64,000 bases of DNA from Acidithiobacillus thiooxidans ATCC 19377. GTDB taxonomy: Bacteria; Pseudomonadota; Gammaproteobacteria; Acidithiobacillales; Acidithiobacillaceae. Each line of letters opens with the position of its first letter. Positions within the stretch are counted from its first letter, which is position 1. Of the stretch, positions 11,813 through 60,319 are shown one piece after another. The position numbers were made by a program, and so were the translations under genes. The notes under the pieces are model-generated. The model saw nothing but the letters and a program-made list of their open reading frames with translations, was not told the origin of the DNA and did not search any database. The stretch lies in the NCBI RefSeq assembly GCF_009662475.1, contig NZ_CP045571.1, forward strand, positions 2,478,501 to 2,542,500. The letters are read 5' to 3'.

Positions 11813-11835
11813 TATTTTCTGCGCCGGTAGACGCT

Positions 11836-44095: not shown

Positions 44096-44123
44096 GGCGT
44101 AAGGCTCCTTTTTAACATTATCA

Positions 44124-45516: not shown

Positions 45517-45585
45517 ACCCAGCAACTCAGGTCAAAGGGCATCACTATCCTAACCTTCCATATAGTTACAATGGCATTTTTCAGG

Positions 45586-46671
45586 CTAGTGTAGTGTTGC
45601 ATTCTGTTTGCTGCTTAAATGGCTGTTGGCGCGAATGACTTTTTGCAGGATGTCGCGGGCGGTTTTGGTCCAGATGAAAGGTTTGGGATGGGTGTTGTGG
45701 TGGTCGATGTACCCCTCAATGGCCTGGATGAGTTCAGGCACACTGGTGAACACCCCACGACGTAACCGCTGGGTCGTGATATCCCGAAAGAAACGCTCGA
45801 CCATGTTGAGCCAGGATGCCGAAGTGGGCGTGAAGTGCATGTGAATACGCGGGTGCTTGTCGAGCCACGCCTGTACTACCGGGTGTTTATGGGTCGCATA
45901 GTTGTCGGCAATCAGATGCAGAGCCTTGTCCCTGGGCGTCTGCCGATCAATTTTCTTCAGGAACTTCAGCCATTCCACATGGGTATGGCGCTGTTGACAC
46001 TGTCCGATGACCTGACCATCCAGCACGTTGAGGGCGGCAAACAAGGTCGTAGTGCCATTACGTTTGTAGTCGTGGGTCATCGTTTCTGCGCGGCCCTTTT
46101 TGAGGGGGAGTCCCGGTTGGGTCCGGTCCAGGGCCTGTACCTGACTTTTTTCATCCACGCAGAGCACCAAGGCATGCTCCGGGGGAGACATATACAACCC
46201 CACAATATCTTCCAGCTTTTCCACAAAATGCGGGTCACGTGACACCTTGAAACCACGCAGCAGATGAGGCTTGAGGCCATGCTTGCGCCAATGCCGTGAC
46301 ACACTGGCGGCACTGACACCCAGTTCTGCCGCCATCCTACGCGTACTCCAATGCGTCATCGCTTCCGGCTTACTCTGCGTGGTCAATTCTACCAGACGGG
46401 CCACATCCACTTTCACCGGAGGGGCGCCGCGCGGTAAATCGCGTTCAATGCCCGACAAGCGGTGTTCCAGATAACGCTTGCGCCAACGTGCGACTTGCAG
46501 GCGATCCACCCCCAGGCGCTCCGCAATTTCTTTGTTCTGCAAGCCCTCTGCCGCCAGCAATATCATCCGTGCCCGTAATGACAAGCGGACACTGCTTAAT
46601 CGGGAGGCGACTATACGGGACAACTCGGACCGCTCTTCGCTGGTTAAAGTGACTGTGGGCGCAACTCGCAA
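45586..46671 (-). CDS. IS630-family transposase
   Basis: A 361-residue transposase with an N-terminal helix-turn-helix region (SRIVASRLSSVRLSLRARMILLAAEGLQNKEIAERLGVD) and a DDE catalytic domain. The likely Asp-Asp-Glu residues lie in LVLCVDEKSQVQ, LHLIADNYATHKHP and SWLNMVERFF, the order of the family. It seems intact. Its last codon and stop (CAC TAG) fall on the left inverted repeat, and the stop includes the TA target duplication. Confidence 0.93.
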   Translation of the reverse strand: MRVAPTVTLTSEERSELSRIVASRLSSVRLSLRARMILLAAEGLQNKEIAERLGVDRLQVARWRKRYLEHRLSGIERDLPRGAPPVKVDVARLVELTTQSKPEAMTHWSTRRMAAELGVSAASVSRHWRKHGLKPHLLRGFKVSRDPHFVEKLEDIVGLYMSPPEHALVLCVDEKSQVQALDRTQPGLPLKKGRAETMTHDYKRNGTTTLFAALNVLDGQVIGQCQQRHTHVEWLKFLKKIDRQTPRDKALHLIADNYATHKHPVVQAWLDKHPRIHMHFTPTSASWLNMVERFFRDITTQRLRRGVFTSVPELIQAIEGYIDHHNTHPKPFIWTKTARDILQKVIRANSHLSSKQNATLH

Positions 46672-46755
46672 GGCTCGACTCCATTCATACCCTCAACATG
46701 GAGCTATTTTATCATCATTAACCTTAAGGTTCACCAAGAATGCAACACTACACTA
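45587..46755. mobile_element. Complete IS630-family insertion sequence
   Basis: Terminal inverted repeats are GTGTAGTGTTGCATTCT at 45589-45605 and its complement at 46737-46753, both flanked by TA (45587-45588, 46754-46755), the expected target duplication. The single transposase gene fills the element. There are no signs of decay. Confidence 0.9.
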
Positions 46756-47018
46756 GTTTTCTAGCGGCCTGCAGGGCACCCGCTGGGGGTGCCCTGCACT
46801 GCGGCTGCCGGATTCCCGGCGGTTGCGGGTCAACGATCCTTTTGCACAGCTGAAATTGATTGGCCGAAATCCAGTGGGGCGCAATACCTTTGGTGTTGTT
46901 CGATGTTCCGGAGATGTGAAAAGTCGCCCGTTGGATATGGCACAAAAAAGTGAGAACGCGGACTGGTTTCAACAGGTCATAAGCAAAGCGCGGTTTTTTT
47001 GTAATTCGTTGTTTTTAT
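46756..47018. other. Gene-free stretch with a hairpin
   Basis: GCAGGGCACC-N7-GGTGCCCTGC (46771-46797) is a perfect ten-base-pair stem. I see no supported gene here; open frames of 72-74 codons on both strands have no ribosome site or family. It lies between the insertion sequence and the integrated element. Confidence 0.4.
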
Positions 47019-47032
47019 TGGCGGAGATGGTG
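47019..47032 (+). repeat. Candidate attL
   Basis: TGGCGGAGATGGTG matches the tRNA-Ser 3' end, TGGCGGAGAGGGTG at 60228-60241, with one mismatch. It lies about 150 bases before the integrase start, as expected. Confidence 0.55.
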
Positions 47033-47049
47033 CCCGCCTGACATATGTT

Positions 47050-47123
47050 CTATACTGTCCGTATCCGTCCACAAATCCCTTTATATACCATTGTTTTACA
47101 CTGTAACCCGTCCTATACTGTCC
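47050..47123 (+). promoter_or_regulatory. Repeats before the integrase gene
   Basis: CTATACTGTCC occurs at 47050-47060 and 47113-47123, 63 bases apart, with the palindrome TTACACTGTAA (47096-47106) between. Related ACTGTAT/ATACAGT dyads lie after the integrase gene. A repressor or excisionase binding array is likely. Confidence 0.5.
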
Positions 47124-47151
47124 ATAGGAAACCGCACAAATCCGCGTTTTT

Positions 47152-47173
47152 AAGTAAGACGAAAAGTAAGACG
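47152..47173 (+). repeat. Candidate integrase arm-type site, left
   Basis: Two direct copies of AAGTAAGACG lie side by side. The same 22-base block recurs at 60151-60172 with one change. After excision the two blocks would flank attP, as arm-type sites do. Confidence 0.55.
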
Positions 47174-47182
47174 AGGTGCAGG

Positions 47183-48385
47183 ATGGGAAAGCTGACAGCA
47201 AGAAAAGTGGAAACCGCCAAGCCCGGCAGTTATGGCGACGGTGACAACCTGTTCCTACGGGTGCGGGCCTCTGGATCGCGTGCCTGGGTATTCCGCTACG
47301 TTCAGGACGGCAAACCCCGCGAAATCGGCATGGGTGCGCTCTCATTGGCAGAAGCGCGGGACAAGGCCGACGCCATGCGGAAAGCTGTCAGGAATGGCAC
47401 CGACCCAGCGCACGTTATCCGACCACCAGAGGGAAGGATCAGGCGCACCTTTGAGGCCGTAGCGCTGGAAACCATCGAGGCACTACGCCCAGGCTGGAAG
47501 AACGCCAAGCATTGCCAGCAATGGGAAAATACGCTGAGGGATTACGCCTATCCTGTCCTTGGCGAGATGCCAGTGGATAGCGTTACAGTAACGGACGTGC
47601 TCAAGGTGCTGTCACCAATCTGGAGAGACAAAACCGAAACCGCTACCCGGCTACGTCAGCGCATCGAGGCGGTGCTGGATCGTGCCGCAGCTCTTGGCGA
47701 ACGTGACCGCGACCGCATCAACCCGGCAGTCTGGAAAGGCAATCTGGAACACCTACTGCCCAAAGCCCAAAAGGTACAGAAGCGGGAACATTTTGCCGCC
47801 GTCCCATATCGTGAGCTGCCTGTAGTCATGGCAAAAATCAGAGAGCAGAACAGCATGAGCGCCCTATGTTTGCGCACCATCGCCCTGACCGCCTGCCGCA
47901 GCGGTGAAATACGCGGCCTGCAATGGGATGAGGTGGACCTGGAGCGCAAGGTGCTAACGATTCCAGCCAGCCGCACAAAAACCCAAAAAGAACACACCGT
48001 CCCTATGAGCGACGAGGTTATAGAGATCCTCACCGCGCTTTCCGAATTGGGCACCAGTGGGACGGTCTTCACAGCACGAGCCGGAAAGCCTCTGTCCGAT
48101 GTGGCAGTATCCAAGGCGCTTCACCATGCGGCGCCAGGCACCACGGTCCACGGTATGCGCTCAGCTTTCCGCGACTGGGCAGGCGATAAAACGCACCATC
48201 AGCGCGAGGTCATCGAGCAGTGTCTAGCTCATGCCGTTGGTGGCGTTGAAGGGGCCTACAGGCGCGGCGATGCTCTGGAGAAGCGGCGCAAGGTTATGGA
48301 TGACTGGGGGCGATTTTTGGGCGTGCAAACGGGCAATGTGGTCAGCTTGGGGGTGCGTCATGAGGGGACGCTTGCAAACAACTAG
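47183..48385 (+). CDS. int: P4-type tyrosine integrase
   Basis: A 400-residue site-specific recombinase. The N-terminal arm-binding domain (LTARKVETAKPGSYGDGDNLFLRVRASGSRAWVFRY) belongs to the DUF4102 type of P4-like integrases that use tRNA genes. The catalytic domain has Arg in LTACRSGEIRGLQWDEV, HGMRSAFRDWAG (HxxR) and, near the end, Tyr in EGAYRRGDALEKRR. ATG at 47183 has an AGG site; the frame extends to 47045 but that part holds the repeats. It lies at the left end, by attL. Confidence 0.93.
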   Translation: MGKLTARKVETAKPGSYGDGDNLFLRVRASGSRAWVFRYVQDGKPREIGMGALSLAEARDKADAMRKAVRNGTDPAHVIRPPEGRIRRTFEAVALETIEALRPGWKNAKHCQQWENTLRDYAYPVLGEMPVDSVTVTDVLKVLSPIWRDKTETATRLRQRIEAVLDRAAALGERDRDRINPAVWKGNLEHLLPKAQKVQKREHFAAVPYRELPVVMAKIREQNSMSALCLRTIALTACRSGEIRGLQWDEVDLERKVLTIPASRTKTQKEHTVPMSDEVIEILTALSELGTSGTVFTARAGKPLSDVAVSKALHHAAPGTTVHGMRSAFRDWAGDKTHHQREVIEQCLAHAVGGVEGAYRRGDALEKRRKVMDDWGRFLGVQTGNVVSLGVRHEGTLANN

Positions 48386-48387
48386 GG

Positions 48388-48428
48388 ACTGTTATACAGT
48401 GAATACATACAGTATTTTAGCACTGTAT
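48388..48428 (+). promoter_or_regulatory. Operator-like dyads after the integrase gene
   Basis: ACTGT-TAT-ACAGT (48388-48400) and ATACAGT-N8-ACTGTAT (48407-48428) share half-sites with the repeats before the integrase gene. They precede the AlpA-like gene and may be its targets. Confidence 0.45.
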
Positions 48429-48515
48429 CGGATGACGAGGACGGCACAAAGCCGACGCTATCAGGGGTAGATCCCCAGAGCGGATTGCCAGATTGTCCGA
48501 CACTATCGGGTCTAG

Positions 48516-48560
48516 ACGGCCATGGGTGTGCAGCTAACAGCTTGCGCCTCATGGCCGTTT
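48516..48560 (+). terminator. Hairpin ahead of the AlpA-like gene
   Basis: ACGGCCATG and CATGGCCGT form a nine-base-pair stem with a 25-base structured loop and a short T-run. It may be a terminator for the integrase transcript or a leader structure. Confidence 0.45.
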
Positions 48561-48602
48561 CCTGTTTTACAGGCCGGGGCGCTTCGTTAAGAGGCACTCG
48601 AT

Positions 48603-48800
48603 ATGCAAATTCAAGTTAAGCAGTATCCTCCAGCTGTCGCTATGGTCAACGTCCGCGAAATCACGTCACTTGGACGAACCACTATTTACAAGCTTGTCAA
48701 ATCTGGGCAGTTCCCGGCACCAAAAAAGATTTTTTCTAATCGCGTAGTTTGGTCCACCTCTGAGGTTCTGGCTTGGATGGAAAGCCGAGGTGTGAAATGA
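48603..48800 (+). CDS. AlpA-like excisionase/regulator
   Basis: A 65-residue helix-turn-helix protein of the AlpA/MerR-like type: VNVREITSLGRTTIYKLVKSGQFPAPKKI followed by VVWSTSEVLAWMESR. AlpA relatives activate or direct excision in satellites and prophages. It starts the replication gene run, and the next gene begins in its stop codon (ATGA). Confidence 0.85.
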   Translation: MQIQVKQYPPAVAMVNVREITSLGRTTIYKLVKSGQFPAPKKIFSNRVVWSTSEVLAWMESRGVK

Positions 48801-49027
48801 ACGCCGCCCATGAAAAAGCCCCGGCTGGCACCGAGGCAGTTTCCGACGACAACATCAAGTCAGATTCTCGCATACCCGCAGCAGGTTTCACAGTCATTCA
48901 TCATTTGCTGTACGCGGCTAAGAATCTGCACAGCCTGCCCGCGTTACCCGATGACGCCATTCAAGGTGCACGCATATTGCTGGCCCGCATCGATGCTGAT
49001 ATTGCCCGACTGGATGGCGCGCAATGA
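48797..49027 (+). CDS. Small protein in the replication run
   Basis: A 76-residue protein, not recognised. The N-terminal third is polar and the C-terminal helix (FTVIHHLLYAAKNLHSLPALPDD) is amphipathic. The start overlaps the AlpA-like stop (ATGA), and the stop overlaps the primase start (ATGA), so translation is coupled. Confidence 0.65.
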   Translation: MNAAHEKAPAGTEAVSDDNIKSDSRIPAAGFTVIHHLLYAAKNLHSLPALPDDAIQGARILLARIDADIARLDGAQ

Positions 49028-49866
49028 ACAGCCCCATAACCGAAGTTCTGACCGACATGGCCGCATGTGGCCTGGCACCCAGCAAACCCAGCGCCATCAT
49101 CTTTGATACACCCAGCATGGTGCGCTTTCACGTCCAGGGCGACAAACCCGGAAGCCGAAACGGCTATTGGCGTGGCTTTTCTGATGGCCGGCCTGCTGGG
49201 ATATTCGGCTCTTGGAAAACAGGTGTGCAGCACCATTGGATCAGCGGCGACGCCGTTACGGTAACAGACGAAGATCGGGCGCGTATCCAGTCGCTACAGC
49301 GCCAACGGGAGCAGGAACAGACCGCAGAGCATGAGCGAGTGTCTGAGATCGCCACAGCGCAGTTTAACGGGCTTCCTGATGCCACTGGGACACCGTACAC
49401 CGCACGGAAGCAGATCACCCCGTTTAATGCCCGGCAGCGGGGCCAGTCTTTGGTGCTGGCTCTGCAAGATTGGTACGGAAAAATCTGTAGCACTCAGACA
49501 ATTTATCCCGATGGCGTTAAACAGATGTTGAAGGGTGGCCGCAAGCGTGGGCTGCATATCTACATTGGCGGAAATCCAGACGGTAGGCTGCTGGTTTGTG
49601 AAGGTTACGCTACAGGGTGCTCACTACGCCAAATGGACCCCGACGCGGAGGTTATCGCTTCGGTTGATGCAGGAAATATGCGATCAGTAGCGGAATCGGC
49701 CAGAGCGCGTTTTCCTGAGCGCGAAATCGTTTTATGTGGAGATCATGATCCAGTCGGTATCCGGTGCGCTGAAGGGGCAGCTAGGGTGATTGACGGGCTT
49801 CTGCTGATACCACCGGAAGCCGGGCAAGATTGGAATGATTACGCCAATGCTCAAGGGGGTGTGTGA
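49024..49866 (+). CDS. Phage Toprim-domain primase-like protein
   Basis: A 280-residue protein with a C-terminal Toprim domain: the Glu is in LLVCEGYATGCSL and the DxD in IVLCGDHDPVGI. The N-terminal half (WRGFSDGRPAGIFGSWKTG) fits the DNA-binding/primase part of P4-alpha-like and related proteins. A zinc finger is not seen. It probably primes replication together with the helicase encoded next, whose start overlaps its stop. Confidence 0.85.
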   Translation: MNSPITEVLTDMAACGLAPSKPSAIIFDTPSMVRFHVQGDKPGSRNGYWRGFSDGRPAGIFGSWKTGVQHHWISGDAVTVTDEDRARIQSLQRQREQEQTAEHERVSEIATAQFNGLPDATGTPYTARKQITPFNARQRGQSLVLALQDWYGKICSTQTIYPDGVKQMLKGGRKRGLHIYIGGNPDGRLLVCEGYATGCSLRQMDPDAEVIASVDAGNMRSVAESARARFPEREIVLCGDHDPVGIRCAEGAARVIDGLLLIPPEAGQDWNDYANAQGGV

Positions 49867-51179
49867 TGGCCGTTTTACCTGGCGCAAAACCCGCAGGCGA
49901 AAAGCTGGAACTCGATCACGGACACCTTGCCGCACTGCTCACTGCTGGACCTGACATTCTGTATAACGGCGGCTGCTTTTTTGAGTTTCAAGACGGTATC
50001 TGGAAAGAAATCCCTGAGGAAATCATGCTCCAAAAAGCCGAACGGATTACCCGCGAAGTCGGAATGGCCGTTACTGCGTCACGAATTGCCGGGATGCTTA
50101 AACTGGCTACCGGACAGGCATACCGTCCTGTTCAATGGAACCAGAGCGGCAGGCGGGACGTGTGTGTCAGTAATGGCATCTTGCAGCACCACGGCGGCGA
50201 ATGGCATCTACGGGACTACCAGCGCGAAGATTATCGGCGGATCCGGCTACCCATTACCTACAAGCCCGATGCTACAGCGCCAAGGTTTGAACAGTTCCTA
50301 TCTGAAGTGTTTGCTGGTGCTTCCGACGCTTCAGATCGCGCCCTGGCACTGTTGGAGTACATGGGGTTATCACTTACCACCACAACCGAATACGAACGCG
50401 CCTTGATGCTGATTGGCAGTGGCGGGAATGGCAAGTCCAAAGTCCTGAACCTGCTGCAGTCGATGGTGGGCGAAGATTACCGGGTGGCCGTTGAGTTATC
50501 TCAGTTGAACAACCGCTTCCAGCAATCGCATCTCGACGGGAAGCTAATCAATGTTATCTCCGAAACGTCCACAGATGGCGAAATGCCCGACAGCACCGTC
50601 AAGAAAATCATCTCTGGAGAAACCCTGACTGCTGAGCGAAAGTTCAAGGATGCTTTCGACTTTCGCCCCGTCTGCAAGCTCTGGATCACCACGAACCATC
50701 TACCCAGCACAAGAGACTTTTCAGACGGGCTATTCCGAAGATTCACCATCTTGCAATTCCAGAACAGGTTTGCACCCGAAGTGGCAGATACCCGGCTGGA
50801 CGCCAAATTACGGGCAGAAACGTCTGGTGTGCTCAATCTGCTGCTTGAATCTCTCGCAGGGGTTTATGAACGTGGCCGCGTAACCATTCCGCCATCGAGT
50901 ACAGAGGCCGCTAAAAGCTGGCGTGTCAGTTCAGATCAAGTGCTGCAATTTCTTGATGAAGCCGTAACCCACGATCCGCAGGCCATAACGCCAAGTAATG
51001 ATATGTACCTGACATACCAGACATGGGCTGATTCCGCTGGGATATATCGGAAGCTGAACCGCAAAAACTTCACCTTGCGGCTAGGGGCGCACGGTATCGA
51101 AAACGGGAAGCACATGGGCACCCGTAGTTTCTACGGAATCCGGCCCCGCCTGGCTTCAGATTTGGGGGGCTGGCTATGA
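49866..51179 (+). CDS. D5/DUF5906-type phage helicase
   Basis: A 437-residue SF3-like helicase. Walker A is GSGGNGKSKVLNLLQ and the Walker B-like strand is LINVISETSTDGEM; SGETLTAERKFKDAFDFRP and KLWITTNHLPSTRDFSDGLFRRF follow as in D5/P4-family replication proteins. The N-terminal part would be the D5N region. It is typical of satellites and plasmids that initiate their own replication. ATG at 49866 follows a GTG at 49863. Confidence 0.9.
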   Translation: MAVLPGAKPAGEKLELDHGHLAALLTAGPDILYNGGCFFEFQDGIWKEIPEEIMLQKAERITREVGMAVTASRIAGMLKLATGQAYRPVQWNQSGRRDVCVSNGILQHHGGEWHLRDYQREDYRRIRLPITYKPDATAPRFEQFLSEVFAGASDASDRALALLEYMGLSLTTTTEYERALMLIGSGGNGKSKVLNLLQSMVGEDYRVAVELSQLNNRFQQSHLDGKLINVISETSTDGEMPDSTVKKIISGETLTAERKFKDAFDFRPVCKLWITTNHLPSTRDFSDGLFRRFTILQFQNRFAPEVADTRLDAKLRAETSGVLNLLLESLAGVYERGRVTIPPSSTEAAKSWRVSSDQVLQFLDEAVTHDPQAITPSNDMYLTYQTWADSAGIYRKLNRKNFTLRLGAHGIENGKHMGTRSFYGIRPRLASDLGGWL

Positions 51180-51538
51180 GCAGGCTTAAATCTCTACTCG
51201 CCAAAATGGACGCGGTGGACGCGATGGACGCGACACCCCACTTAATATCCAACGCGGGAGGAAATGTAAGACACACACAGGGGGGAGAATACAGTATTAG
51301 ATGCAATCTCGCGTCCATCGCGTCCATAACGTCATTTTCTCGCTTGGCGTCATCCGGCTGCCCCGATGATTACAGCCGTTTGGAGCGTGAAGCAATCCAG
51401 GCTGAATCACCTCTTGGCGGATCAGGATCAGATGACATTCCCGGCTTTGATGATGTGGTTCCCGTCACTATGGCGCAGCGCAGAGCTATCAACACCCGCA
51501 TTTATGGATGGGTTTATCCACAGGAGCAACAACTATGA
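51176..51538 (+). CDS. Hypothetical protein
   Basis: A 120-residue protein without a family I can name. The start overlaps the helicase stop (ATGA). The N-terminus has an SRLKSLLAKMDAVDAMDAT stretch with a short repeat, and the C-terminal end (VTMAQRRAINTRIYGWVYPQ) is helical. It may be a replication accessory. Confidence 0.55.
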   Translation: MSRLKSLLAKMDAVDAMDATPHLISNAGGNVRHTQGGEYSIRCNLASIASITSFSRLASSGCPDDYSRLEREAIQAESPLGGSGSDDIPGFDDVVPVTMAQRRAINTRIYGWVYPQEQQL

Positions 51539-51720
51539 AAACGACAGACCAGACATCCACCCTGGCGGAAATCCATCAGGCTCTTGTAAAGGCACAGGCG
51601 GCTTTCGATCAAAACAACCGCGATGACCTGGAGGAATGTTTGATGACCGCAGGCTTTGCGCTTTGCCGTCTGCTACCCGACGAGCTTGTGGAAAGCTCGC
51701 CTGATATATGGTTCGCCTGA
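51535..51720 (+). CDS. Small acidic hypothetical protein
   Basis: A 61-residue acidic helical protein (TLAEIHQALVKAQAAFDQNN; DDLEECLMTAGFALCRLL). Its ATG overlaps the preceding stop and its stop overlaps the next ATG, so it is clearly part of the coupled run. No function can be given. Confidence 0.6.
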   Translation: MKTTDQTSTLAEIHQALVKAQAAFDQNNRDDLEECLMTAGFALCRLLPDELVESSPDIWFA

Positions 51721-51881
51721 TGAGACCGCGCAAACACACCCCGAAAGTGCCAACTGGTTATATGGATAAACTTGCTCAGCTCTACGGCAAACCAGTCCAG
51801 CAAGGCCCCATATCTGCCACGGAACGCACGCAGCCCACTGAGGTGCTACCACCGTACCAACAACCACAGAAGGAGGGCTAA
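51720..51881 (+). CDS. Very small basic protein
   Basis: A 53-residue frame from ATG 51720 to TAA 51879-51881, rich in Pro, Gln and Lys at its ends. Its start overlaps the preceding stop (TGATG), and an AGGAGGG site inside its end serves the terminase gene. Not recognised. Confidence 0.5.
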   Translation: MRPRKHTPKVPTGYMDKLAQLYGKPVQQGPISATERTQPTEVLPPYQQPQKEG

Positions 51882-51883
51882 AA

Positions 51884-52339
51884 ATGAACGAACGGCAGGA
51901 GCGTTTTTGTTTTGAATATGCCGCGAGTTTGAACGCGACGACTGCCGCAATTGAAGCAGGATATTCGGAAGCGTCTGCCTATTCTCAAGGTCATGACCTC
52001 CTGAAAAAGCCTGAAATTCAAGCAAAGGTCGCGCAATACCTTGATGAGCGGCGACTACAGCAGGCCCGGCAATTCACACTTGCCAACGATCAGGCGATTA
52101 GTGCGCTGCTGGAAATCATCAGCAACCCGCGTGCTGCTGCCCAGGCACGAGTCAGCGCAGCCGTTGCTATTTTGGATCGTGGCGGCCATTCGGTAATCAA
52201 CAAGTCATTGATTAAAGCGGAGGTGAATGTAAATGAACTCAGTCACGAACAACGAGCTGCACGACTTGCTTACTTACTTGAACTCGCAAGAAGCCGACGA
52301 ATTGCAAGCGATACTCCAGGCGACGCCGGACCCGATTAA
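51884..52339 (+). CDS. Phage terminase small subunit
   Basis: A 151-residue DNA-recognition subunit of the packaging motor, Terminase_2 type: MNERQERFCFEYAASLNATTAAIEAGYSEASAYSQGHDLLKKPEIQAKVAQYL. Residues 100-140 would form the oligomer part. It binds pac/cos DNA and passes it to the large subunit, which is not encoded here. In satellites, a private small subunit redirects a helper's packaging to satellite DNA. It has a strong AGGAGG site. Confidence 0.85.
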   Translation: MNERQERFCFEYAASLNATTAAIEAGYSEASAYSQGHDLLKKPEIQAKVAQYLDERRLQQARQFTLANDQAISALLEIISNPRAAAQARVSAAVAILDRGGHSVINKSLIKAEVNVNELSHEQRAARLAYLLELARSRRIASDTPGDAGPD

Positions 52340-52454
52340 GATTCTTCTGGTTTTCGTTCGGCCGGACCGAACCATTCAGAGCTATGCAACGCCCTTGCCG
52401 GGTGGTGGCCTTCGGTATCTGGAACCAGGCGATCCGTTTCTGGAAGGCGAGTAA
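52233..52454 (+). CDS. Small protein overlapping the terminase small subunit end
   Basis: A 73-residue frame in another register that overlaps the terminase gene by 107 bases, with GGAGGTG before its ATG. The N-terminal ELHDLLTYLNSQEADELQAIL resembles the first helix of large terminase subunits, but no ATPase domain follows. It could be a relic of a large subunit or a separate protein. The sequence then ends in a polar region. Confidence 0.5.
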   Translation: MNSVTNNELHDLLTYLNSQEADELQAILQATPDPIKILLVFVRPDRTIQSYATPLPGGGLRYLEPGDPFLEGE

Positions 52455-52615
52455 AAAAGTGATGGCGGATCAACAGTCCGCCTTATTATGAAATCATCAT
52501 ATTGTTTTATTTGCTGTAAAGATAAATTAACTGCATTAGGTCTTACTTTTAGTCTTTCTTTCTGGTGTGGTTACTGTATAATTATTCACTGTAGATATTG
52601 AATAAGGATATAAGT

Positions 52616-52810
52616 ATGAAAACGCGGGCCGAACACCAGCGCGAACGACGCAAGCGCTTAAAAGCTGAAGGAGCCATCTGCCGCTTGCAGGCGGAAATAT
52701 CCACCCCGGCAGCTTTGGCGCTGATTCACCTGACTACCGTTCGCGGTCAAACAACCCGCGCCGTTCTCGAATCCTTGATTATGGAGGCCGTTACCCATGC
52801 AGCAGCCTGA
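52616..52810 (+). CDS. Small possible RHH-type DNA-binding protein
   Basis: A 64-residue protein with a basic start (KTRAEHQRERRKRLKAEG) and a helix pair (STPAALALIHLTTVRGQTTRAVLESLIMEAV) that could be ribbon-helix-helix. The ATG at 52616 has AAGGAT upstream. The upstream 160 bases hold a likely promoter region but no gene. Confidence 0.5.
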   Translation: MKTRAEHQRERRKRLKAEGAICRLQAEISTPAALALIHLTTVRGQTTRAVLESLIMEAVTHAAA

Positions 52811-52967
52811 ACCTAAGGTCACCGCTGAGCTGACAAAATCCGAGCTTGACGCCGTCTTGCGCGAACGCATCAAACAGCAGCAAACCCAAACAGCGCGGGA
52901 AGCCTTTCGTGCTTTATCCGCAACCGAACAGCGCAACGTCCTTCGCAAAATTGGAGTCAGACTATGA
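52797..52967 (+). CDS. Small helical protein
   Basis: A 56-residue frame from ATG 52797 to TGA 52965-52967, starting within the end of the gene before and overlapping the next ATG. It is charged and helical (SELDAVLRERIKQQQTQTAREAF). Not recognised; coupled start and stop positions support it. Confidence 0.5.
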   Translation: MQQPEPKVTAELTKSELDAVLRERIKQQQTQTAREAFRALSATEQRNVLRKIGVRL

Positions 52968-53542
52968 ACCAAGCTATTGAAGCACTCACCAAAGCCAACA
53001 CTGCCCATTTCCACGCCCTCAACGCTCTGGAAGCGGCAAAAGCTGAACGGGACAGCCTGATTCAGCAGGTCGCTGCTGATGGCGGCAAACCTTCGGACCC
53101 ACGTCTTGCCAAGGCTACCGACGCCATCGCCCAGGCATCCACCGCTGCGGAGCTTGCAGACGCTTCCCGGCTGACTGCCCAGCGTGACTACTATGTTGCC
53201 CAGGTCGCTGACCTTGCCCGCCAGCGCGACGTCATCCTTGATCGGCATAAAGCGGCCATCGATACAGCAGCAGCCGCGTTGCAGCATGTGCATGACTTGG
53301 TTGCCCAGGCTCAGGAAGGTATCAAGGCCCTGCACGCAGCCGAAAGCGCACGGAATGACGTCATCACGGAAGGCCAGCAGTTTGACGCCAGCATCGAGCG
53401 CACCGCTGTTGAGAATCCTGTTATGGCGGCCATGCACCGCTCCGAGCTGCCGCGTGCAAAGTTGGGCATGCCGCTTGGGTACAGTCAATTCACTGTCGAG
53501 TTGATGACCGGACAACGCGGATTGTTTGGATCGCGTAAATAG
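52964..53542 (+). CDS. Coiled-coil protein before the tape-measure gene
   Basis: A 192-residue protein. Residues 10-150 are Ala/Glu/Gln/Arg-rich helix with coiled-coil character (LEAAKAERDSLIQQVAADGG; LADASRLTAQRDYYVAQVADL). Its position just before the tape measure suggests a tail-assembly chaperone or structural role, but no family is seen. A UUCG hairpin terminator follows 22 bases after its stop. Confidence 0.6.
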   Translation: MNQAIEALTKANTAHFHALNALEAAKAERDSLIQQVAADGGKPSDPRLAKATDAIAQASTAAELADASRLTAQRDYYVAQVADLARQRDVILDRHKAAIDTAAAALQHVHDLVAQAQEGIKALHAAESARNDVITEGQQFDASIERTAVENPVMAAMHRSELPRAKLGMPLGYSQFTVELMTGQRGLFGSRK

Positions 53543-53564
53543 TTTCATGGCGTGGTCAGGCTTT

Positions 53565-53585
53565 GGGACTTCGGTCCCCTTTTTA
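53565..53585 (+). terminator. UUCG-loop terminator
   Basis: GGGAC-TTCG-GTCCC followed by CTTTTT is a compact rho-independent terminator. It separates the upstream run from the tape-measure gene, which may have its own promoter or rely on antitermination. Confidence 0.7.
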
Positions 53586-53600
53586 TAAGAGGTGTAACCC

Positions 53601-56600
53601 ATGGCTGATATGAAGATTGCAATGACGCTCACGATGGCGGATTTGGCGTCACCGGAGATCCAGAAGTTCAAGTCCAATCTGGCACAGTTGGAGAAGTATC
53701 TCGCCGGCCTGAATGACTCGTTCAAGCTGAATGTGGCAGGCGCTTCCGATCTGGGGAAGGCCCTTGCCGGTGCTGTTGCTGGCATCACTCGGGCAAGCAA
53801 AGCCACTGCAGACATGGGTAGCTCGGCGTCTAGGTCATCCGGTAGCCTTGCGGGGCTGACAAAGACGTTGGCCCAGGCGGAAGCGGAAACTGCCGCGCTT
53901 TTTCAGTCCTCCATGGTGATGAACAAGGAAGCGCTCAAGTCTGCCTTTACCTACGAGAAAGCGGCTGCTGCTGCCACTGAATACGATGCCAGCATGACGC
54001 CATTGGCAGCTACTTTGGCGCGGGTGCAGGAAGAGACGCAGGCTGCCATCGCGTCCACCCTGGAAATGAACAAAGCGCAGCTCAAGTCCATTTTTACCTA
54101 CGAAAAAGCTACCGAAGCGGCAACCGAATACAATGCGTCTGTCACACCTTTGGGCGCAACCTTGGCGCGCGTTCAAGAGGAAACCCAAGCCGCCATTGTT
54201 TCCACGCTGGAAATGAACCGTGCCCAGTTAAAATCCATCTTCACCTACGAAAAGGCGGAAGTGGCCGCGACTGAATACGACGCTTCGGTTACCCGTATAG
54301 GTGACACACTGCGGGCCGTCGCCGCCCAGACGCAGGAAATGATTGCCGCTACCATGACCATGGATAAAACCATGCTCAGTGCAGCCTTTGCTGCTACAGG
54401 GCTTGGGGACAAGTCTCTTGCGGCTGCAGGCAAGCTCGGTGCTGTAGGAGACGCCGCCAAGGCCAGCTCTGCCGATATTGGAACCCTTACAGGACAGATG
54501 CACGGCTTAAAGGGGATCATGGAAGCGGTGGCGGCAGTAGGCGGTTATGAGGCCATCAAGGACGCAGTCGTCAAAGCGGCATCCTTTCAGCAGACGAAAC
54601 TGCAGATCAGCGCCAGAAACCTCCCAACAGGTGAATATGGCAATCTAGTCAGCCAGGCGAAAACGCTCAGCGGAAAATATCCCTACAGCATGGGTCAGAT
54701 TCTAAAAGCTGAACTTTCCGCGCTGCCCATGATGCCGGGCCAGTCTGCACACTCTCAGATGATCCGTGCAGCGATCATGCCCAAGGTACTCTCCACGGCT
54801 TTTGAGATGCAGCGCTTTGGCTCCAAGATGTCCCTTCCGGAACTCTCCAAGGAGTTGTTCGGCCTGGTGGATATGTCGGGCGGCTCCAAGAATCTGGGCC
54901 GCGCTGATATGGTGCTGGACGTGGCGGGTCGGGCGGCTGGTGCTTCTGGTGGAAAAATCACCCCCCAGACACTGCACACGTCTTTCCGCTACCTGAACGC
55001 GGGTATCTCTGGCAGCATGAACAAGTCCTCGATGATGCAATTCATGGCGCTGGTGGATCAATTCAAGGGAACCGGCGAAGGCGGCGCAAGTCGCGCAGCA
55101 ACGGTTTATAACAACATCTTTGCAGCGGCCACTAAAGGGATCATAGGTAAAGGTCTCGCCGTCCTACTGGAAAAGGTCGGCCTGCTTAACCCGAAAGACG
55201 TGCATGCGTATGGTCACAGCAGTACCCGCGTCATGCTCACACCTGGGGCCTTACTTGGGTCATCCATGGCAGCCACCAACCCGGGCGAATGGCTTGCTAC
55301 ATACGGAACGGAACGGTTACTCGCTTATACTCAGGCGCACTGGAAGGAGTTTGGATACAAGGGTAATACCAAAGCTGACTTTACCAATCCGCAGCAGATC
55401 GCGCATGCCATGGCGCAAATCCAAAGTTACGCGGCCAGTTTTGGGATGGGCGCCCAAGCCTATGCAAATGCAGCGGCTATCTACGGCAACCCGTCCAGAG
55501 TCAGAGGCATGAAAGAACAGGTGGTTCAAATGCAGCAGTTTGAATCATCCACCGAATACATGCAGCAGGCATTGAAGACCTTAAACGGCTCATGGAAAAG
55601 CCTAACAGCACAACTTTCCACGACTGCTACTCTTTTGGGTGGTCCGATGATTACCAACCTGACCAACTTCAACAACGGGCTGGCTGGACTATTGGCGCAG
55701 TTTAACAAAATGCTGATCAAGTTCCCGGCGCTTACGGATGTGATCGACGCGCTTCTCGTGGCTATAACCGGACTGACGGCAGTAAAGGCCGTCGAGTGGC
55801 TTCTGGGCGTGCGGGCATCTTTCAAGGCGCTCCTGGGGATTGGTGGGGTGGTAAAGACCGTGGACGGGGTGGCCGCAGGTTCTGAGAAGATGGGCGGGGC
55901 ACTTTCCAAAGTATCTTCTTCCGTCAGTGGGATGTTGCCCCTTCTGCTCAGGTTTGCTGGGGCGATTAGCCTGCTCAAGTTGGCGACCAATATCAGTCCT
56001 ACCGCCAAAATTCCCGGTCAGGTTCTCGGCGCAAAGAACCAGTCGCTGGATAACACGGCCACGAGCATTGCCTCTGGTATCATGAGCCACGTCACCGGTC
56101 AGCCGATTGAACAGCTTCTGAACAACCCGGGCGGGATCCGCAAATGGGGAAACCTGCCTTTGGTGAAAGCCGGTAATAATGGCTACTTCGTCAAATTTGC
56201 CTCAGCCTTGGCCGGGCTACATGCGATGTCTGAAAACCTGCAGGCCTATGGACGGCAAGGGATGGATACGCTGAATACCATCATCCCGACCTGGAACGGG
56301 CACGGAGCCAACAGCGGCGCCTATATTGCTGACGTGCATAAGTGGACGGGGTTTAAGCCCGGTCAGGCGTTGAATTTATCGAGCGCCAAAATAAGAGCCT
56401 CCCTGATGGCAGCTATCGTGCGCCAAGAGCTGGGCAAGACGCCCTACAGTGCGGCCCTGATTGCACAGGCGGCCGGCGTAGGAGATCGGCCTGATAGCGA
56501 ACAACGCACGGCGAATGCGATGTATAACGCAGCACAGAAAATCCACATTCAGCCCGGTTCCTTGCTGGCTGGGATGCAGACGCCAACAGATGTGAAAGTG

Positions 56601-57797
56601 GTCAATGCTGGCAAAGCGGAGTTGGACGCCCAGAACAAACTCAGCGAAGCCTTCCGCAAGCGCATCGAGGACGCGCTCCGTTTCCAGGCGCATCTGCAGA
56701 ACATCGCTAACGGGATTCACGCAGCCTATCAGGGCATCTTTGACCCGCTTTCCAGCAAGATTCCGGCTATCCAGGCCAAGTATCGCTCCCTCTCCGGCTA
56801 CTTGCTCACTAACGGGCACACGAAGGCCGCACAGGAAGCTTTGGCGGTCGGTCATCATCAGGTGCTCGGGCTGCAGTACAAGGGCGCTATGGGGCACTTG
56901 GCTGGCCTGCAGCGCAACTTGCACCTGGGCACGACCGATAACGCGGCTCTGCTCAAGACTGGCGTCATCACCAATGCTCAGGCGACTGATCGGAATATCA
57001 AGCTGCAGCAGCAGATGGCCCCACAGATGCAGAAAGCGGCAGAGGCCGCGCTCAAGTATGCCGAAGCGTTGAAGGACCCTGCACTGGTGGCCGCACTGAA
57101 AGAACAACTTGCCAATATCGGCACCATGGGCAAACAACTGGGCTATTACGGGACAAAGTTCAAACAGTCTCTGCAGTCCTCGTTTAACGGGCTGTTTAAC
57201 AACCTGATGAATGGACAGAAGACGCTCGGGGAAAGTTTTGCAGCCTTCTTCGCCAGCATCGGCAAGAGCCTGGAGAATCAGCTATCCAAGAGCCTGTCAC
57301 AGAGCATCACGGACGCTATCACCGGTAAGCATGGCAGTTCTGGGCTCGGTTCACTGTTCAGCGGTATAACCGGCATGTTTAGCAACGTGTTCGGAAGCGG
57401 TAGCAGTTCATCGTCCAGCAACCCGTTTGCAGGCGCGGCCATCATGGGCTCCGGTTCTTCCTCTGGCGGATCGTCCACGATGTCCAGCATCGGCGGCATC
57501 ATCAAAGGCATCACCAGTATTGCGGGCCTGTTCGGTTTTGCATCGGGCGCTGACAACATCCCTAACGATATGGTGGCGAACATCCACAAGGGCGAGATGA
57601 TTATTCCGGCTGCAGGGGCTTCCCTGATCCGCTCAGGACAGGCTGGCATTGGTGGCGGTGGTGGCCCTACTCTCCACATGCACATAAACACCATCGACAG
57701 TCAGGACTTTCTGGGCCACCTGCACGAGATACGGGCCCAGGCTACACAAATGTTTTTAGATACCGCGCAGCACTTGAATGTACAGGGGGTGGGATGA
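53601..57797 (+). CDS. Tail tape-measure protein with embedded muralytic-like domain
   Basis: A 1398-residue protein. About residues 86-275 consist of four 49-residue repeats (units like TLARVQEETQAAIASTLEMN plus KAQLKSIFTYEKA plus ATEYNASVTPLGA). Around 640-810 are hydrophobic helices. Residues 838-960 (NNPGGIRKWGN; VKFASALAGLHAMSENLQAY; GRQGMDTLNTIIPTW) resemble the peptidoglycan-degrading domains found in phage virion proteins. The C-terminus has NQLSKSLSQSITDAIT, Gly/Ser-rich stretches and GADNIPNDMVANIHKGEMIIPA, the typical end of tape-measure proteins. The protein sets tail length and may make a hole in the cell wall. No other tail gene is present. Confidence 0.85.
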   Translation: MADMKIAMTLTMADLASPEIQKFKSNLAQLEKYLAGLNDSFKLNVAGASDLGKALAGAVAGITRASKATADMGSSASRSSGSLAGLTKTLAQAEAETAALFQSSMVMNKEALKSAFTYEKAAAAATEYDASMTPLAATLARVQEETQAAIASTLEMNKAQLKSIFTYEKATEAATEYNASVTPLGATLARVQEETQAAIVSTLEMNRAQLKSIFTYEKAEVAATEYDASVTRIGDTLRAVAAQTQEMIAATMTMDKTMLSAAFAATGLGDKSLAAAGKLGAVGDAAKASSADIGTLTGQMHGLKGIMEAVAAVGGYEAIKDAVVKAASFQQTKLQISARNLPTGEYGNLVSQAKTLSGKYPYSMGQILKAELSALPMMPGQSAHSQMIRAAIMPKVLSTAFEMQRFGSKMSLPELSKELFGLVDMSGGSKNLGRADMVLDVAGRAAGASGGKITPQTLHTSFRYLNAGISGSMNKSSMMQFMALVDQFKGTGEGGASRAATVYNNIFAAATKGIIGKGLAVLLEKVGLLNPKDVHAYGHSSTRVMLTPGALLGSSMAATNPGEWLATYGTERLLAYTQAHWKEFGYKGNTKADFTNPQQIAHAMAQIQSYAASFGMGAQAYANAAAIYGNPSRVRGMKEQVVQMQQFESSTEYMQQALKTLNGSWKSLTAQLSTTATLLGGPMITNLTNFNNGLAGLLAQFNKMLIKFPALTDVIDALLVAITGLTAVKAVEWLLGVRASFKALLGIGGVVKTVDGVAAGSEKMGGALSKVSSSVSGMLPLLLRFAGAISLLKLATNISPTAKIPGQVLGAKNQSLDNTATSIASGIMSHVTGQPIEQLLNNPGGIRKWGNLPLVKAGNNGYFVKFASALAGLHAMSENLQAYGRQGMDTLNTIIPTWNGHGANSGAYIADVHKWTGFKPGQALNLSSAKIRASLMAAIVRQELGKTPYSAALIAQAAGVGDRPDSEQRTANAMYNAAQKIHIQPGSLLAGMQTPTDVKVVNAGKAELDAQNKLSEAFRKRIEDALRFQAHLQNIANGIHAAYQGIFDPLSSKIPAIQAKYRSLSGYLLTNGHTKAAQEALAVGHHQVLGLQYKGAMGHLAGLQRNLHLGTTDNAALLKTGVITNAQATDRNIKLQQQMAPQMQKAAEAALKYAEALKDPALVAALKEQLANIGTMGKQLGYYGTKFKQSLQSSFNGLFNNLMNGQKTLGESFAAFFASIGKSLENQLSKSLSQSITDAITGKHGSSGLGSLFSGITGMFSNVFGSGSSSSSSNPFAGAAIMGSGSSSGGSSTMSSIGGIIKGITSIAGLFGFASGADNIPNDMVANIHKGEMIIPAAGASLIRSGQAGIGGGGGPTLHMHINTIDSQDFLGHLHEIRAQATQMFLDTAQHLNVQGVG

Positions 57798-58099
57798 TGA
57801 AGGACAACAACAGTATTGACCGCGATCTAGTAAAAGCGGTTTTGGCAATAAATTCACTTGAGCACACCATCGGCGATGTCGCAGAGTACATGTCCACTTT
57901 CTCTAAATCTGTGTTATCGGCCGATCTTCCGGAGCCTGCTGGCTCATACAAGAAGGCCTTACAGGAAGCGGGGGAGACGATGGCAGCAGCGATGAATCAG
58001 TACCGCGCAATTGTGGGCGCACTGGGTCAGGCGCTCCTGGAAGAACCGGAGGAAAAAGAGATTGATGAACCGGGAATAGCGTTGCCGGTAAGACACTGA
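57794..58099 (+). CDS. Hypothetical protein after the tape-measure gene
   Basis: A 101-residue acidic helical protein (DNNSIDRDLVKAVLAINSLEH) without a known family. The ATG overlaps the tape-measure stop. In phages such a gene often encodes a small tail protein, but nothing in the sequence proves it. A GC-rich hairpin (58127-58145) follows the gene. Confidence 0.55.
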   Translation: MMKDNNSIDRDLVKAVLAINSLEHTIGDVAEYMSTFSKSVLSADLPEPAGSYKKALQEAGETMAAAMNQYRAIVGALGQALLEEPEEKEIDEPGIALPVRH

Positions 58100-58255
58100 G
58101 CCTGAATTGTCCTCTGACACTTACCTTGCCCCGTTATGCGGGGCATTGCCAAAGGCGTTTGTGTGGTCTAATTGAACATACCACACGCCACTGGGTTTCA
58201 TTTCAACTGGGATGCAATATCTTGGCGCTGTCTTATACCCATTAAAGAGGCTCGT

Positions 58256-58861
58256 ATGAAAACTATTCCGGCATTACTGGCGGCGCTTTTGCTGTTGACT
58301 CCAGAATTAGTTTTTGCAGCAGGGATAACTGCTCCAAAATCAGGAGGTTTTCAGTTTACAGGTCAGCAGATAGTTGATCGGTTACAAGATGATATGGCTC
58401 ACCCCGCGAGATACACCGGGTTATTTGATGGCCCAACTAAGTCTGGACGCGTTGGTTCCATTACAAATTGCAAAGGGATTGGTCACCGTGCCAGTTCTGG
58501 AATGTACACATGTGATATTACGGGTGTGACTGTTGGTACAACCGTCAACGTCCAGGTGGATGTCTTGCATACGAAGGTCATGTCGGTGATTCTTTCCGTC
58601 CAGAACGACATTCCTGCCAACTCTGGACTTACAGCAATTACTGCGATGATGCTCGAAGGGGCTGTTGTACAAGCGGTGGACCCCCTGGCGCAACAGCACG
58701 GTATCTCAAATAAAACGCATGAAGAGTTGATTATGGCTGGATTGTCACCAGGGCCAAAATTAAACCTTAGGAGAGACGTTCGAGCCGATGGCTTAACCTT
58801 TGAGCAAAGAATGTACTCAGGCGACCTAGTCCTTGATGTGCACCCAACCGGAGGAAGTTGA
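58256..58861 (+). CDS. Exported hypothetical protein
   Basis: A 201-residue protein with a clear signal peptide (KTIPALLAALLLLTPELVFA). The mature part has two cysteines (ITNCKGIGH, MYTCDITG) that may form a disulfide. No family is recognised. ATG at 58256 has AAAGAGG upstream; an earlier start would add 28 residues without a site. Its presence in a phage element suggests a cargo gene acting on the envelope. Confidence 0.65.
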   Translation: MKTIPALLAALLLLTPELVFAAGITAPKSGGFQFTGQQIVDRLQDDMAHPARYTGLFDGPTKSGRVGSITNCKGIGHRASSGMYTCDITGVTVGTTVNVQVDVLHTKVMSVILSVQNDIPANSGLTAITAMMLEGAVVQAVDPLAQQHGISNKTHEELIMAGLSPGPKLNLRRDVRADGLTFEQRMYSGDLVLDVHPTGGS

Positions 58862-59101
58862 CAGTATCCATAACAGCGACTAATCTCATGTCCATGGTGC
58901 TGAAAACACCTATAGGCGGAACTCCGCCCCGTCAGACTTGCGGGCTTTTTTATGCCTGTTGCTCAGCAATAGGCTCGTCCTCGATGGCCGGGGGTGGCCG
59001 GAATAAAATACCCGCGAGGGAAATACGTCCGGTGCACCTATAGCACTTTTCAGCCCCTGGCCGCCTGAGTCTTTCAGGCACTTTGCACAGAGGGCTTAAT
59101 C

Positions 59102-59437
59102 ATGGAAAAAACACAGAATCGTACATACGGCGAGTTCGGCACCCGGTTATTCGATGCCTATCACGTCTCCAAAAACCCGGAAGGACTGACAGCCGGGCAA
59201 CTGAACGGCCATCTACAGGTTGCCAGAGAAACTAATTATGGCCTGTTCGCGAACATAAACACTTTGGGGCAGATACTCATGCATACCCCAGACAATAGAA
59301 ACGCCTGGGATGAAAGCACGCTGTCTGATTTTGGGTCTCTGCTGGCTTCTCTTGGCAACGTCGGGTGTCTCATTGATGGAATCAGCGAAGATTTGCAGCA
59401 CCATATCAATACACTGAACGCGAACAAGGAGGCTTAA
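59102..59437 (+). CDS. Hypothetical protein, paralogue of the next gene
   Basis: A 111-residue acidic protein, not recognised. It shares with the following gene a plan of a polar N-terminus, a helix, then N..AWDESTLSDFGSLLASLGN versus N..IWNEGTLYGIGEGLAVFSD. So the two are duplicates. The ATG at 59102 has AGAGGG upstream. About 240 bases upstream hold no gene. Confidence 0.55.
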   Translation: MEKTQNRTYGEFGTRLFDAYHVSKNPEGLTAGQLNGHLQVARETNYGLFANINTLGQILMHTPDNRNAWDESTLSDFGSLLASLGNVGCLIDGISEDLQHHINTLNANKEA

Positions 59438-59439
59438 TC

Positions 59440-59754
59440 ATGCATTACACACCATGTCATGAAACGATCTACAAAGCGCGGGAAGCGGCCAACCATCCCG
59501 ATGGACACACCACGGAGGATCTGGCTCGCTTTGCAGATGCTATGCGCTCAGCCAATTTGAGTCTGTGGAACTCGGTCAGTGCCATCAGCCTGGTAATGAT
59601 AGAATCCAAGGACAACATAGATATCTGGAACGAGGGCACCCTTTACGGCATTGGCGAAGGCCTGGCCGTGTTCTCCGATTTGGCAATGGGTATCAGCTTT
59701 ACGCTGGACTCGCTCACCAATGAAATGACCCGGCGCAGAGGGGGTGCAAAATGA
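59440..59754 (+). CDS. Hypothetical protein, paralogue of the previous gene
   Basis: A 104-residue protein, two bases after the previous stop, with GGAGG before its ATG. It shares the W(N/D)E(G/S)TL segment and the length with its neighbour. The end of the gene overlaps the next start (ATGA). Function unknown. Confidence 0.55.
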   Translation: MHYTPCHETIYKAREAANHPDGHTTEDLARFADAMRSANLSLWNSVSAISLVMIESKDNIDIWNEGTLYGIGEGLAVFSDLAMGISFTLDSLTNEMTRRRGGAK

Positions 59755-59963
59755 TTATCACCGCAGCCGACCATGCCGAAGGCCTACAGAACCGAATTAA
59801 CCGTATCCGCGTTATGGTGCGATTACTGACCACAGACAGCGCATATAACGAGCTTGGCAAGAATGACCTTGCCTATGCCCTGGATGCTGTTGAGAACGCG
59901 CTGGAAGATGCCTGTAATTGCTCTGGGATACTTACTGAGATGGTAACTCACGCGAAATCGTGA
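59751..59963 (+). CDS. Small acidic hypothetical protein
   Basis: A 70-residue helical protein (AADHAEGLQNRINRIRVMVRLLTTD; LDAVENALEDACNCSGIL), coupled to the gene before by an ATGA overlap. It is the last gene of the element and is followed by a terminator. Not recognised. Confidence 0.5.
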   Translation: MIITAADHAEGLQNRINRIRVMVRLLTTDSAYNELGKNDLAYALDAVENALEDACNCSGILTEMVTHAKS

Positions 59964-59985
59964 TCAGATACGACCAGGCGACAGC

Positions 59986-60016
59986 AACCCCTGCACCAGT
60001 TTGGTCGGGGGTTTTT
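59986..60016 (+). terminator. Terminator at the element's right end
   Basis: AACCCC pairs with GGGGTT around a 15-base loop that also contains a CGACCA/TGGTCG pairing with the sequence before; a T-run follows. Confidence 0.5.
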
Positions 60017-60150
60017 CTTTGTCTAGCTCTGTTACAGTAACGATACCCAAACCAAAAATGTTGAGAAATGTTAACATTTGCTCTCGCGTAGATGTTTGTG
60101 GATCTCTGATCGTCTGGTTGCTGCTACGGTATTGCCCGAACCAGAACCAA

Positions 60151-60172
60151 AAGTAAGACGAAAAGAAAGACG
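60151..60172 (+). repeat. Candidate integrase arm-type site, right
   Basis: A 22-base block, AAGTAAGACG then AAAAG(T/A)AAGACG, identical to 47152-47173 except for one base. It lies 56 bases before the tRNA 3' end, matching arm sites on the right of the element. Confidence 0.55.
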
Positions 60173-60227
60173 CGGCCAAGCTGGAAAAATTAAAGCCCCT
60201 CAAAATCAGGGGCTTATTAGCAATGCG

Positions 60228-60319
60228 TGGCGGAGAGGGTGGGATTCGAACCCACGTGGGGCTATTAACCCCCATCCGATTTCGAGTCGGCGCCGTTATG
60301 GCCACTTCGGTACCTCTCC
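60228..60319 (-). tRNA. tRNA-Ser (anticodon CGA)
   Basis: On the minus strand the acceptor stem is GGAGAGG/CCTCTCC, the T arm is GTGGGTTCGAATCCCAC, and the long variable arm (GGGGGTTAATAGCCCC) marks a class II tRNA. The anticodon loop CTCGAAA gives CGA (codon UCG). CCA is encoded. The 3' end is the integration site of the element on its left. Confidence 0.95.

Follow-up and report, generated by a model that had tools for sequence, protein, structure and literature searches.

The subject of this analysis is a 64,000-bp stretch of the Acidithiobacillus thiooxidans ATCC 19377 genome (hereafter the window; part of NZ_CP045571.1, or G000:C1, a host replicon assembled as a single contig of 3.42 Mb), in which positions 47019-60241 form an att-bounded element of ~13 kb integrated at tRNA-Ser(CGA). 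Element coordinates are window positions throughout. We consider it probable that a phage satellite has integrated here, one whose tail tape-measure protein (TMP) replaces that of a helper phage in chimeric tails. Well-characterised satellites have been held to use helper tails unchanged, a rule that the phage-inducible chromosomal island (PICI)-like elements (PLEs) of Vibrio cholerae broke in 2026 (PMC12987554). Gene content suggests that the same rule is broken in two further lineages, the window element and a satellite-like family termed S2, in which tail genes would be swappable cargo.

Boundaries and gene content of the element

The ends proposed in an earlier note on this DNA, 47019 and 60241, coincide with the att cores in an alignment with a natural empty site in the metagenome-assembled genome G014. 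There, window 46753-47032 (279/280 positions identical) runs directly into the tRNA, and the left flank and the tRNA overlap by 14 bp at the att core (TGGCGGAGA(T/G)GGTG). Because the empty site lacks exactly window 47019-60241, the insertion was precise. The 14-bp cores of attL and attR are identical in their first 9 bp and at 13/14 positions overall. In the 12 kb compared, the G014 contig carries window 42448-45590, then (skipping an insertion sequence) 46753-47032, the tRNA and secF/secD. In 15 of the 16 other genomes of the genus, similarity at tRNA-Ser(CGA) begins at 60227/60228; the exception, G013, retains ~72 bp from the right-hand end of the element.

All open reading frames (ORFs) treated as genes were compared with Pfam, PHROGs or both. 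The integrase, AlpA-like regulator, Toprim primase, D5-type helicase, small terminase subunit (TerS) and 1398-aa TMP that the note had listed were recovered with their coordinates, and its claim that other virion genes are absent stands in so far as these scans recognised no further gene for head, tail or packaging. Antisense ORFs of 385 and 253 aa had no PHROG match. A PADLOC scan of 10 proteins for defence genes gave weak matches on the 192-aa protein alone, which we do not believe. The features are as follows.

47019..47032, no strand: attL core, TGGCGGAGATGGTG (from the empty-site alignment and repeat length)
47152..47176, no strand: 25-bp repeat 5′ of int, candidate integrase arm site
47183..48385, + strand: tyrosine integrase (Pfam Phage_int_M 1e-28, Arm-DNA-bind_3 1.1e-18; the ORF opens at 47045, likely start by eye at 47183)
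48603..48800, + strand: AlpA-like regulator/excisionase (Pfam AlpA 7.2e-11; phrog_2790 9.4e-14)
49024..49866, + strand: Toprim primase (Toprim_3 8.4e-15; 76% identical in the G001 element)
49863..51179, + strand: D5-type helicase (DUF5906 4.4e-22, D5_N 1.3e-8; PHROG DNA primase)
51176..51538, + strand: 120-aa protein kept in kin elements (partial matches, 64% in L053, 48% in L056, 49% in L054)
51508..51720, + strand: 70-aa ORF, no assigned family
51708..51881, + strand: 57-aa ORF, no assigned family
51884..52339, + strand: TerS (Terminase_2 7.6e-17; PHROG terminase small subunit 3e-18)
52233..52454, + strand: 73-aa protein conserved in kin (43-51% in L056, L057, L058)
52598..52810, + strand: 70-aa ORF, left of the TMP module
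52797..52967, + strand: 56-aa ORF
52964..53542, + strand: 192-aa protein directly 5′ of the TMP, by position a candidate TMP partner
53601..57797, + strand: TMP, 1398 aa (phrog_2276; alignment to phage TMPs)
57794..58099, + strand: 101-aa protein, start overlapping the TMP stop (modelled two-helix hairpin)
58172..58861, + strand: 229-aa ORF, signal-peptide-like by eye, no family
59102..59437, + strand: 111-aa ORF, by eye paralogue-like to the next ORF
59440..59754, + strand: 104-aa ORF (weak match to a 109-aa ORF of phage G034: 29%, E 0.003)
59751..59963, + strand: 70-aa ORF
60151..60175, no strand: second copy (92%) of the 25-bp repeat, near attR
60228..60241, no strand: attR core, the 3′ end of tRNA-Ser(CGA) (from the empty-site alignment)
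60228..60319, − strand: tRNA-Ser(CGA), the integration target

The element's TerS is 61% identical to a protein in G015, 45% to one in L053 and 39% (2e-18) to the TerS of phage G034. The 192-aa protein belongs to no Pfam or PHROG family and had no relative in phages or IMG/VR.

The tape-measure protein

By homology, the 1398-aa protein is a tail tape-measure protein akin to those of tailed phages with tail modules. It matched phrog_2276 (tail tape measure) at 1.7e-20, although this match is confined to residues 829-1009, and Pfam gave no match above the cut-off. The assignment rests also on alignment with the TMPs of phage tail modules, namely those of G012, a siphoprophage of the same genus whose TMP is cut by the contig end, and of G034, an IMG/VR phage with a TMP of 1090 aa. 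Identity to the siphophage TMPs was 43-46% in the C-terminal part, ~25% in the middle and 31% over residues 1-93, and all three proteins have an N-P-DMVA-IHKGEMI segment in common. Relative to the G012 and G034 proteins, the element's TMP has extra N-terminal repeats and a transglycosylase-like insert. Three parts of the protein can be placed:

53997..54293, + strand: two copies of a 49-aa repeat (silent sites saturated, protein conserved)
56121..56660, + strand: transglycosylase-like insert, residues 841-1020 (resembles phage internal-virion transglycosylases; PDB 9vvp Gp29, 3.7e-10)
56715..57788, + strand: C-terminal part (residues 1039-1396 46% identical to G012, residues 1031-1394 43% to the G034 phage TMP)

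The frame is open across all 1398 codons; the earlier note had likewise seen no frameshifts. The two 49-aa repeat copies differ at 33/37 silent sites versus 10/113 replacement sites, and their silent sites are at random expectation (16/44 identical codons compared with 17.1 expected). The TMP has thus been under long purifying selection, visible between its internal repeats, part of which may date from its time in a phage. Codon scrambling between the repeats as a device against recombination was rejected, because the silent differences match random expectation.

Kin elements and the S2 family

Elements with the same backbone were found in G001, in G003 and, as a contig fragment, in G014, which speaks against the window element being a one-off deletion. 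The G001 element (7.45 kb) is flanked by a 54-bp repeat of tRNA-Asn and has a different integrase; besides its Toprim (76%), it shares with the window the D5 helicase (46-47%), the 120-aa protein (64%, partial) and TerS (45%). The G003 element (8.15 kb), flanked by a 74-bp repeat at tRNA-Leu, shares AlpA (37%), Toprim (50%), parts of the 120-aa protein and the 73-aa protein (43%); its TerS-like protein comes from another family (phrog_1889, 6.9e-9), and a 752-aa ORF in the helicase position, possibly in the wrong frame, had no PHROG match. The G014 fragment carries integrase (73%), AlpA (61%), Toprim (59%) and D5 (46-47%). No TMP was found in the G001, G003 and G014 genomes, and the scanned ORFs of the G001 and G003 elements, TerS genes aside, had no PHROG head or tail match. 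The window element is 5.1-5.8 kb larger than these two, and the module made up of the 192-aa protein, the TMP and the 101-aa protein measures 5.1 kb. This arrangement makes the TMP module look like cargo loaded onto the chassis of a satellite.

The gene order that the note had hoped to see conserved in several genomes is conserved for the backbone. It is not for the TMP, which at E<=1e-5 occurs among the 31 genomes of the order only in the window element and the ordinary G012 prophage, both in the genus, with a weak match in G017. At E<=1e-30, D5 was found in 3/31 genomes of the order, the element's own included. D5-based scans of IMG/VR and a TMP scan of genome_contigs returned no relatives.

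Scanning IMG/VR with the Toprim alignment gave 31 loci. Three of these (L088, L090 and L092) carry integrase, Toprim and helicase (DUF927 in L088), followed by a strong TMP (phrog_24, 1e-204 to 2e-229), and a gene of a tail assembly family (phrog_32) lies just 5′ of the TMP in L088 (9e-61) and L090 (8e-61). The long ORFs of L088, taken over the entire record, included no recognised head gene. A 312-aa gene left of the TMP served as the S2 marker and was found at 39 loci. The 12 with at least 56% identity (L108-L119) were inspected; the other 27 were left out of the counts, L120, L123, L136 and L144 being ORF-listed only. S2 proper comprises the seven closest records (L108-L114; marker 87-100%), in which the scan with hidden Markov models (HMMs) covered part of the ORFs.

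Toprim, helicase, 244-aa and 312-aa genes are common to the six long S2 records, and an AlpA-like gene to L088, L112 and L113. An HMM-confirmed TMP lies within 1.3 kb downstream of the 312-aa gene in six of the seven S2 records (L088, L090, L092, L112, L113 and L114); the best profile was phrog_339 (1.6e-115) for L112 and phrog_24 for the others. L110 has a baseplate hub gene (phrog_196, 4.7e-72) in place of the TMP; at 11047-12748, the hub gene and a 233-aa gene stand where the TMP would be, downstream of the 312-aa gene. DNA similarity of L110, L112 and L113 to L088 stops within 4 bases of the stop codon of the 312-aa gene, and that of L092 stops there too, resuming near the TMP start. The sister records L112 and L113 have backbones that are ~90-92% identical in DNA. 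Their TMPs are 60% identical over the first 40 aa and 71% identical over 442 aa near the C-terminus, whereas the middles (787 and 482 aa, respectively) gave no BLASTP match. The S2 Toprim is ~37% identical to that of the window, and no BLASTP match was found between S2 and window TMPs. Judged by these genes, S2 is a satellite-like family that stands apart from the window lineage and has a slot in which tail genes vary.

The marker itself is not satellite-specific, since it also occurs in L119, a fragment of a prophage in which large terminase, portal and protease genes are present. Among the more distant marker records, tblastn comparisons covering L115-L118 detected neither the Toprim nor the helicase of S2. 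A TMP is present upstream of the marker in L116 and 4.5 kb downstream of it in L117. L115 and L118, both partly scanned, showed no full-length TMP, and a 235-aa L115 ORF weakly matched a TMP profile (1.2e-4). L114 and L116 are fragments of <6 kb and therefore uninformative on the absence of head genes. The marker had no match in a class-wide draw of 369 genomes. L115 8233-12503 holds a TerS gene (phrog_309, 4e-40) and a PmgG-like head morphogenesis gene (phrog_1114, 3e-56). In L100, a ~20-kb S2 element with tRNA-Thr at its edge (348-423 to the record end) is classed as a virus in IMG/VR; no flanking att repeat of at least 13 bp was found. The G033 record (L105 7646-8050) has a TMP without a preceding tail assembly gene, and an apparent piece of such a gene stands elsewhere, its C-terminal end being alike by eye.

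The 101-aa protein that follows the window TMP had no phage match, and the same is true of the 103-aa protein that follows the L088 TMP. The former was modelled as a two-helix hairpin (pLDDT 79) and the latter as three helices (pLDDT 74). The idea that both belong to one chaperone family was dropped; a PDB fold search with the 101-aa model gave nothing at E<=0.001.

Around the integration site, the ~80 bp of the element's right end past the tRNA also occur beside tRNA-Ser(GCT) in the host genome (89%; L006 13662-13818, G000:C1:1929688-1929817). Further copies, at L060 near 12117 and L059 near 2286, adjoin tRNA-Ser(GCT) in G011 (86%) or tRNA-Ser(CGA) in G013. All of these copies are likely scars of related elements. 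Regions downstream of tmRNA (L061 7840-19833; L003; L043) resemble the element's tRNA-proximal end (73-79%), and in G003 ORFs that by eye resemble a restriction-modification system come after the tmRNA. The left flank (window 42448-47032) is 99.6% identical to G014, while secF/secD on the right side are 78-80% identical; the stretch beside tRNA-Ser(CGA) was probably transferred recently. The insertion sequence at window 45586-46752, with CTAGT at both ends, is absent from the G014 copy, and the 259 bp compared (46501-46759) recur identically at L007 16137-16395.

A proposed substitute tape measure, its alternatives and known satellites

In the scheme that we favour, a chassis of ~8 kb (integrase, AlpA, Toprim-D5 replication and TerS) would have gained a tail module of ~5 kb (192-aa protein, TMP and 101-aa protein). 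During growth of a siphophage helper, AlpA and integrase would excise the element at tRNA-Ser, Toprim and D5 would replicate it, and TerS would steer the helper's large terminase onto satellite DNA. The satellite TMP would compete with that of the helper: the C-terminal part would fit the tail tip of the helper, the N-terminus would match the neck side, and the satellite's own middle region would set tail length and add a murein-degrading domain for entry. The product would be a helper head with a chimeric tail. Kept ends with a free middle are the pattern expected of a substitute TMP. In 80alpha, the first 37 TMP residues are modelled at the neck and TMP C-termini bind Tal at the tip (PMC11661146). 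By analogy with PLEs, chimeric tails would be expected when the window element exploits a siphophage like G012 or G034. The proposal in the earlier note of a satellite with its own tape measure is strengthened by the empty site, the kin elements, the intact TMP under purifying selection and the S2 arrangement; the effect on tail length or injection that it also proposed we infer. Its impression that such a satellite had not been met before no longer holds, since a paper of March 2026 described the TMPs and chimeric tails of PLEs (PMC12987554).

Several observations count against a substitute tape measure. A single intact TMP copy is no proof of current function, and since the TMP is restricted to the element and the G012 prophage, the TMP-carrying form of the lineage has been seen once. 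Terminator-like hairpins at 52464-52482 and 53565-53578 would part the TMP from the backbone transcript, although the number of hairpins in the region is close to chance (18 versus 13.4, sd 3.9). Neither of the proteins that flank the TMP (192 and 101 aa) has a recognisable relative, so that a chaperone among them is at most putative. Finally, searches of the host genome with a TMP profile and the G012 tail-tip protein found no TMP besides the element's own and no G012-type tail-tip protein, other head and tail types lying outside these searches. A resident helper of that kind was rejected, though another resident prophage is possible; as no phage of G012/G034 type was found in the host genome, the helper would arrive by infection.

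The TMP might instead be a weapon, acting as a decoy to poison the assembly of helper tails and protect the host, without itself entering satellite particles. Targeting of a TMP has a precedent in Rta of PLE11, which blocks ICP1 tails via the ICP1 TMP (PMC12987554), and the relation of the window element to a helper is a predicted one. However, a decoy has no obvious need for 1398 residues, a transglycosylase-like domain, or conserved ends with exchanged middles, and the PLE satellite TMP sits in the virion (PMC12987554). We consider a weapon unlikely.

The earlier note had named as its main alternative a prophage that lost its middle, with head, portal, large terminase and tube genes deleted and terS and the TMP left behind. 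A single siphophage record, G034, holds relatives of TerS as well as of the TMP, and the genus has one TMP-bearing copy besides the G012 prophage. The full prophage at this tRNA that the note thought relatives might carry was seen in none of them, the view reaching ~1.5 kb past the tRNA in each genome and 12 kb in G014, so that the search for tail modules in most relatives extended no further than this. Against such a loss speak the kin elements bounded by 54- and 74-bp att repeats, which are only 7-8 kb long and have no recognised TMP, head or tail gene, as well as the empty G014 site, the closely packed ORFs between terS and the TMP and the similar layout repeatedly found in S2. We regard a decayed prophage as improbable. 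That the TMP is a mere passenger, acquired by recombination with a siphoprophage and without a present role, would fit the kin elements without a TMP and the single satellite copy in the genus, but it has an equally low standing given the intact 4.2-kb frame overlapping the next gene, the strong suppression of replacement changes between the repeats (though this selection may predate capture) and the recurrence of TMPs in S2.

Beyond the substitute tape measure of this one element, tail remodelling may be a general satellite strategy with a cassette slot, in which tail genes (TMP, tail assembly protein, baseplate hub) are exchanged on distinct chassis, and the docking ends of the TMP are kept while its length-setting middle is swapped. 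We put this forward tentatively, at somewhat less than even odds. If true, satellites could retune tail length or entry to one helper and switch helpers by switching the cassette. Both the slot and the pattern of kept ends and swapped middles appear to add to what the PLE paper describes (PMC12987554). The L112/L113 pair is a natural experiment on how TMPs set length and fit a helper. For acidophilic iron and sulphur oxidisers, the window element offers a starting point for work on phages and gene transfer; a literature search turned up no paper on Acidithiobacillus satellites.

PICIs have int, alpA, a primase and their own terS as a gene set, and the window element has all four. With P4-like satellites and Gram-negative PICIs it shares tRNA integration, a tyrosine integrase, AlpA, a primase-helicase and a chassis of ~8 kb. 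It differs from them in that a TMP module is present. No capsid-resizing or packaging-interference gene was recognised among its genes, which include several small ORFs of no assigned family; the scanned window ORFs gave no PHROG match to Psu, Delta or Sid, P4 proteins themselves lying outside the search. Capsid-forming PICIs (cf-PICIs) carry capsid genes, whereas none was recognised in the window element by the Pfam/PHROG scans. Some cf-PICIs are alike in having putative tmp genes (PMC12987554, Extended Data Fig. 10 legend).

The closest parallel in tail building is with PLEs (PLE11, PLE1 and PLE4; PMC12987554), likewise satellites with their own TMP and without a full head-tail set. According to PMC12987554, TMP modules in other satellites had been unreported before that work. 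PLE particles contain the satellite TMP, with the helper TMP undetected, and their tails are 10 nm shorter; deletion of tmp reduces transduction by 96-99.9% (PMC12987554). Chimeric tails have thus been demonstrated for PLEs, whereas for the window element they are predicted from its genes. Unlike PLEs, the window element has a tyrosine integrase at a tRNA, AlpA, Toprim/D5 and TerS; PLE1 has a large serine recombinase instead (PMC6002521). Its TMP has a transglycosylase-like insert and siphophage-type relatives, PLE proteins themselves not having been searched against the element. PLEs further encode a tail assembly chaperone and a baseplate hub, neither of which has a match in the window element, where the 192-aa and 101-aa neighbours belong to no family. 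The divergence of PLE tail types, which are <25% identical to one another (PMC12987554), resembles the variable slot of S2.

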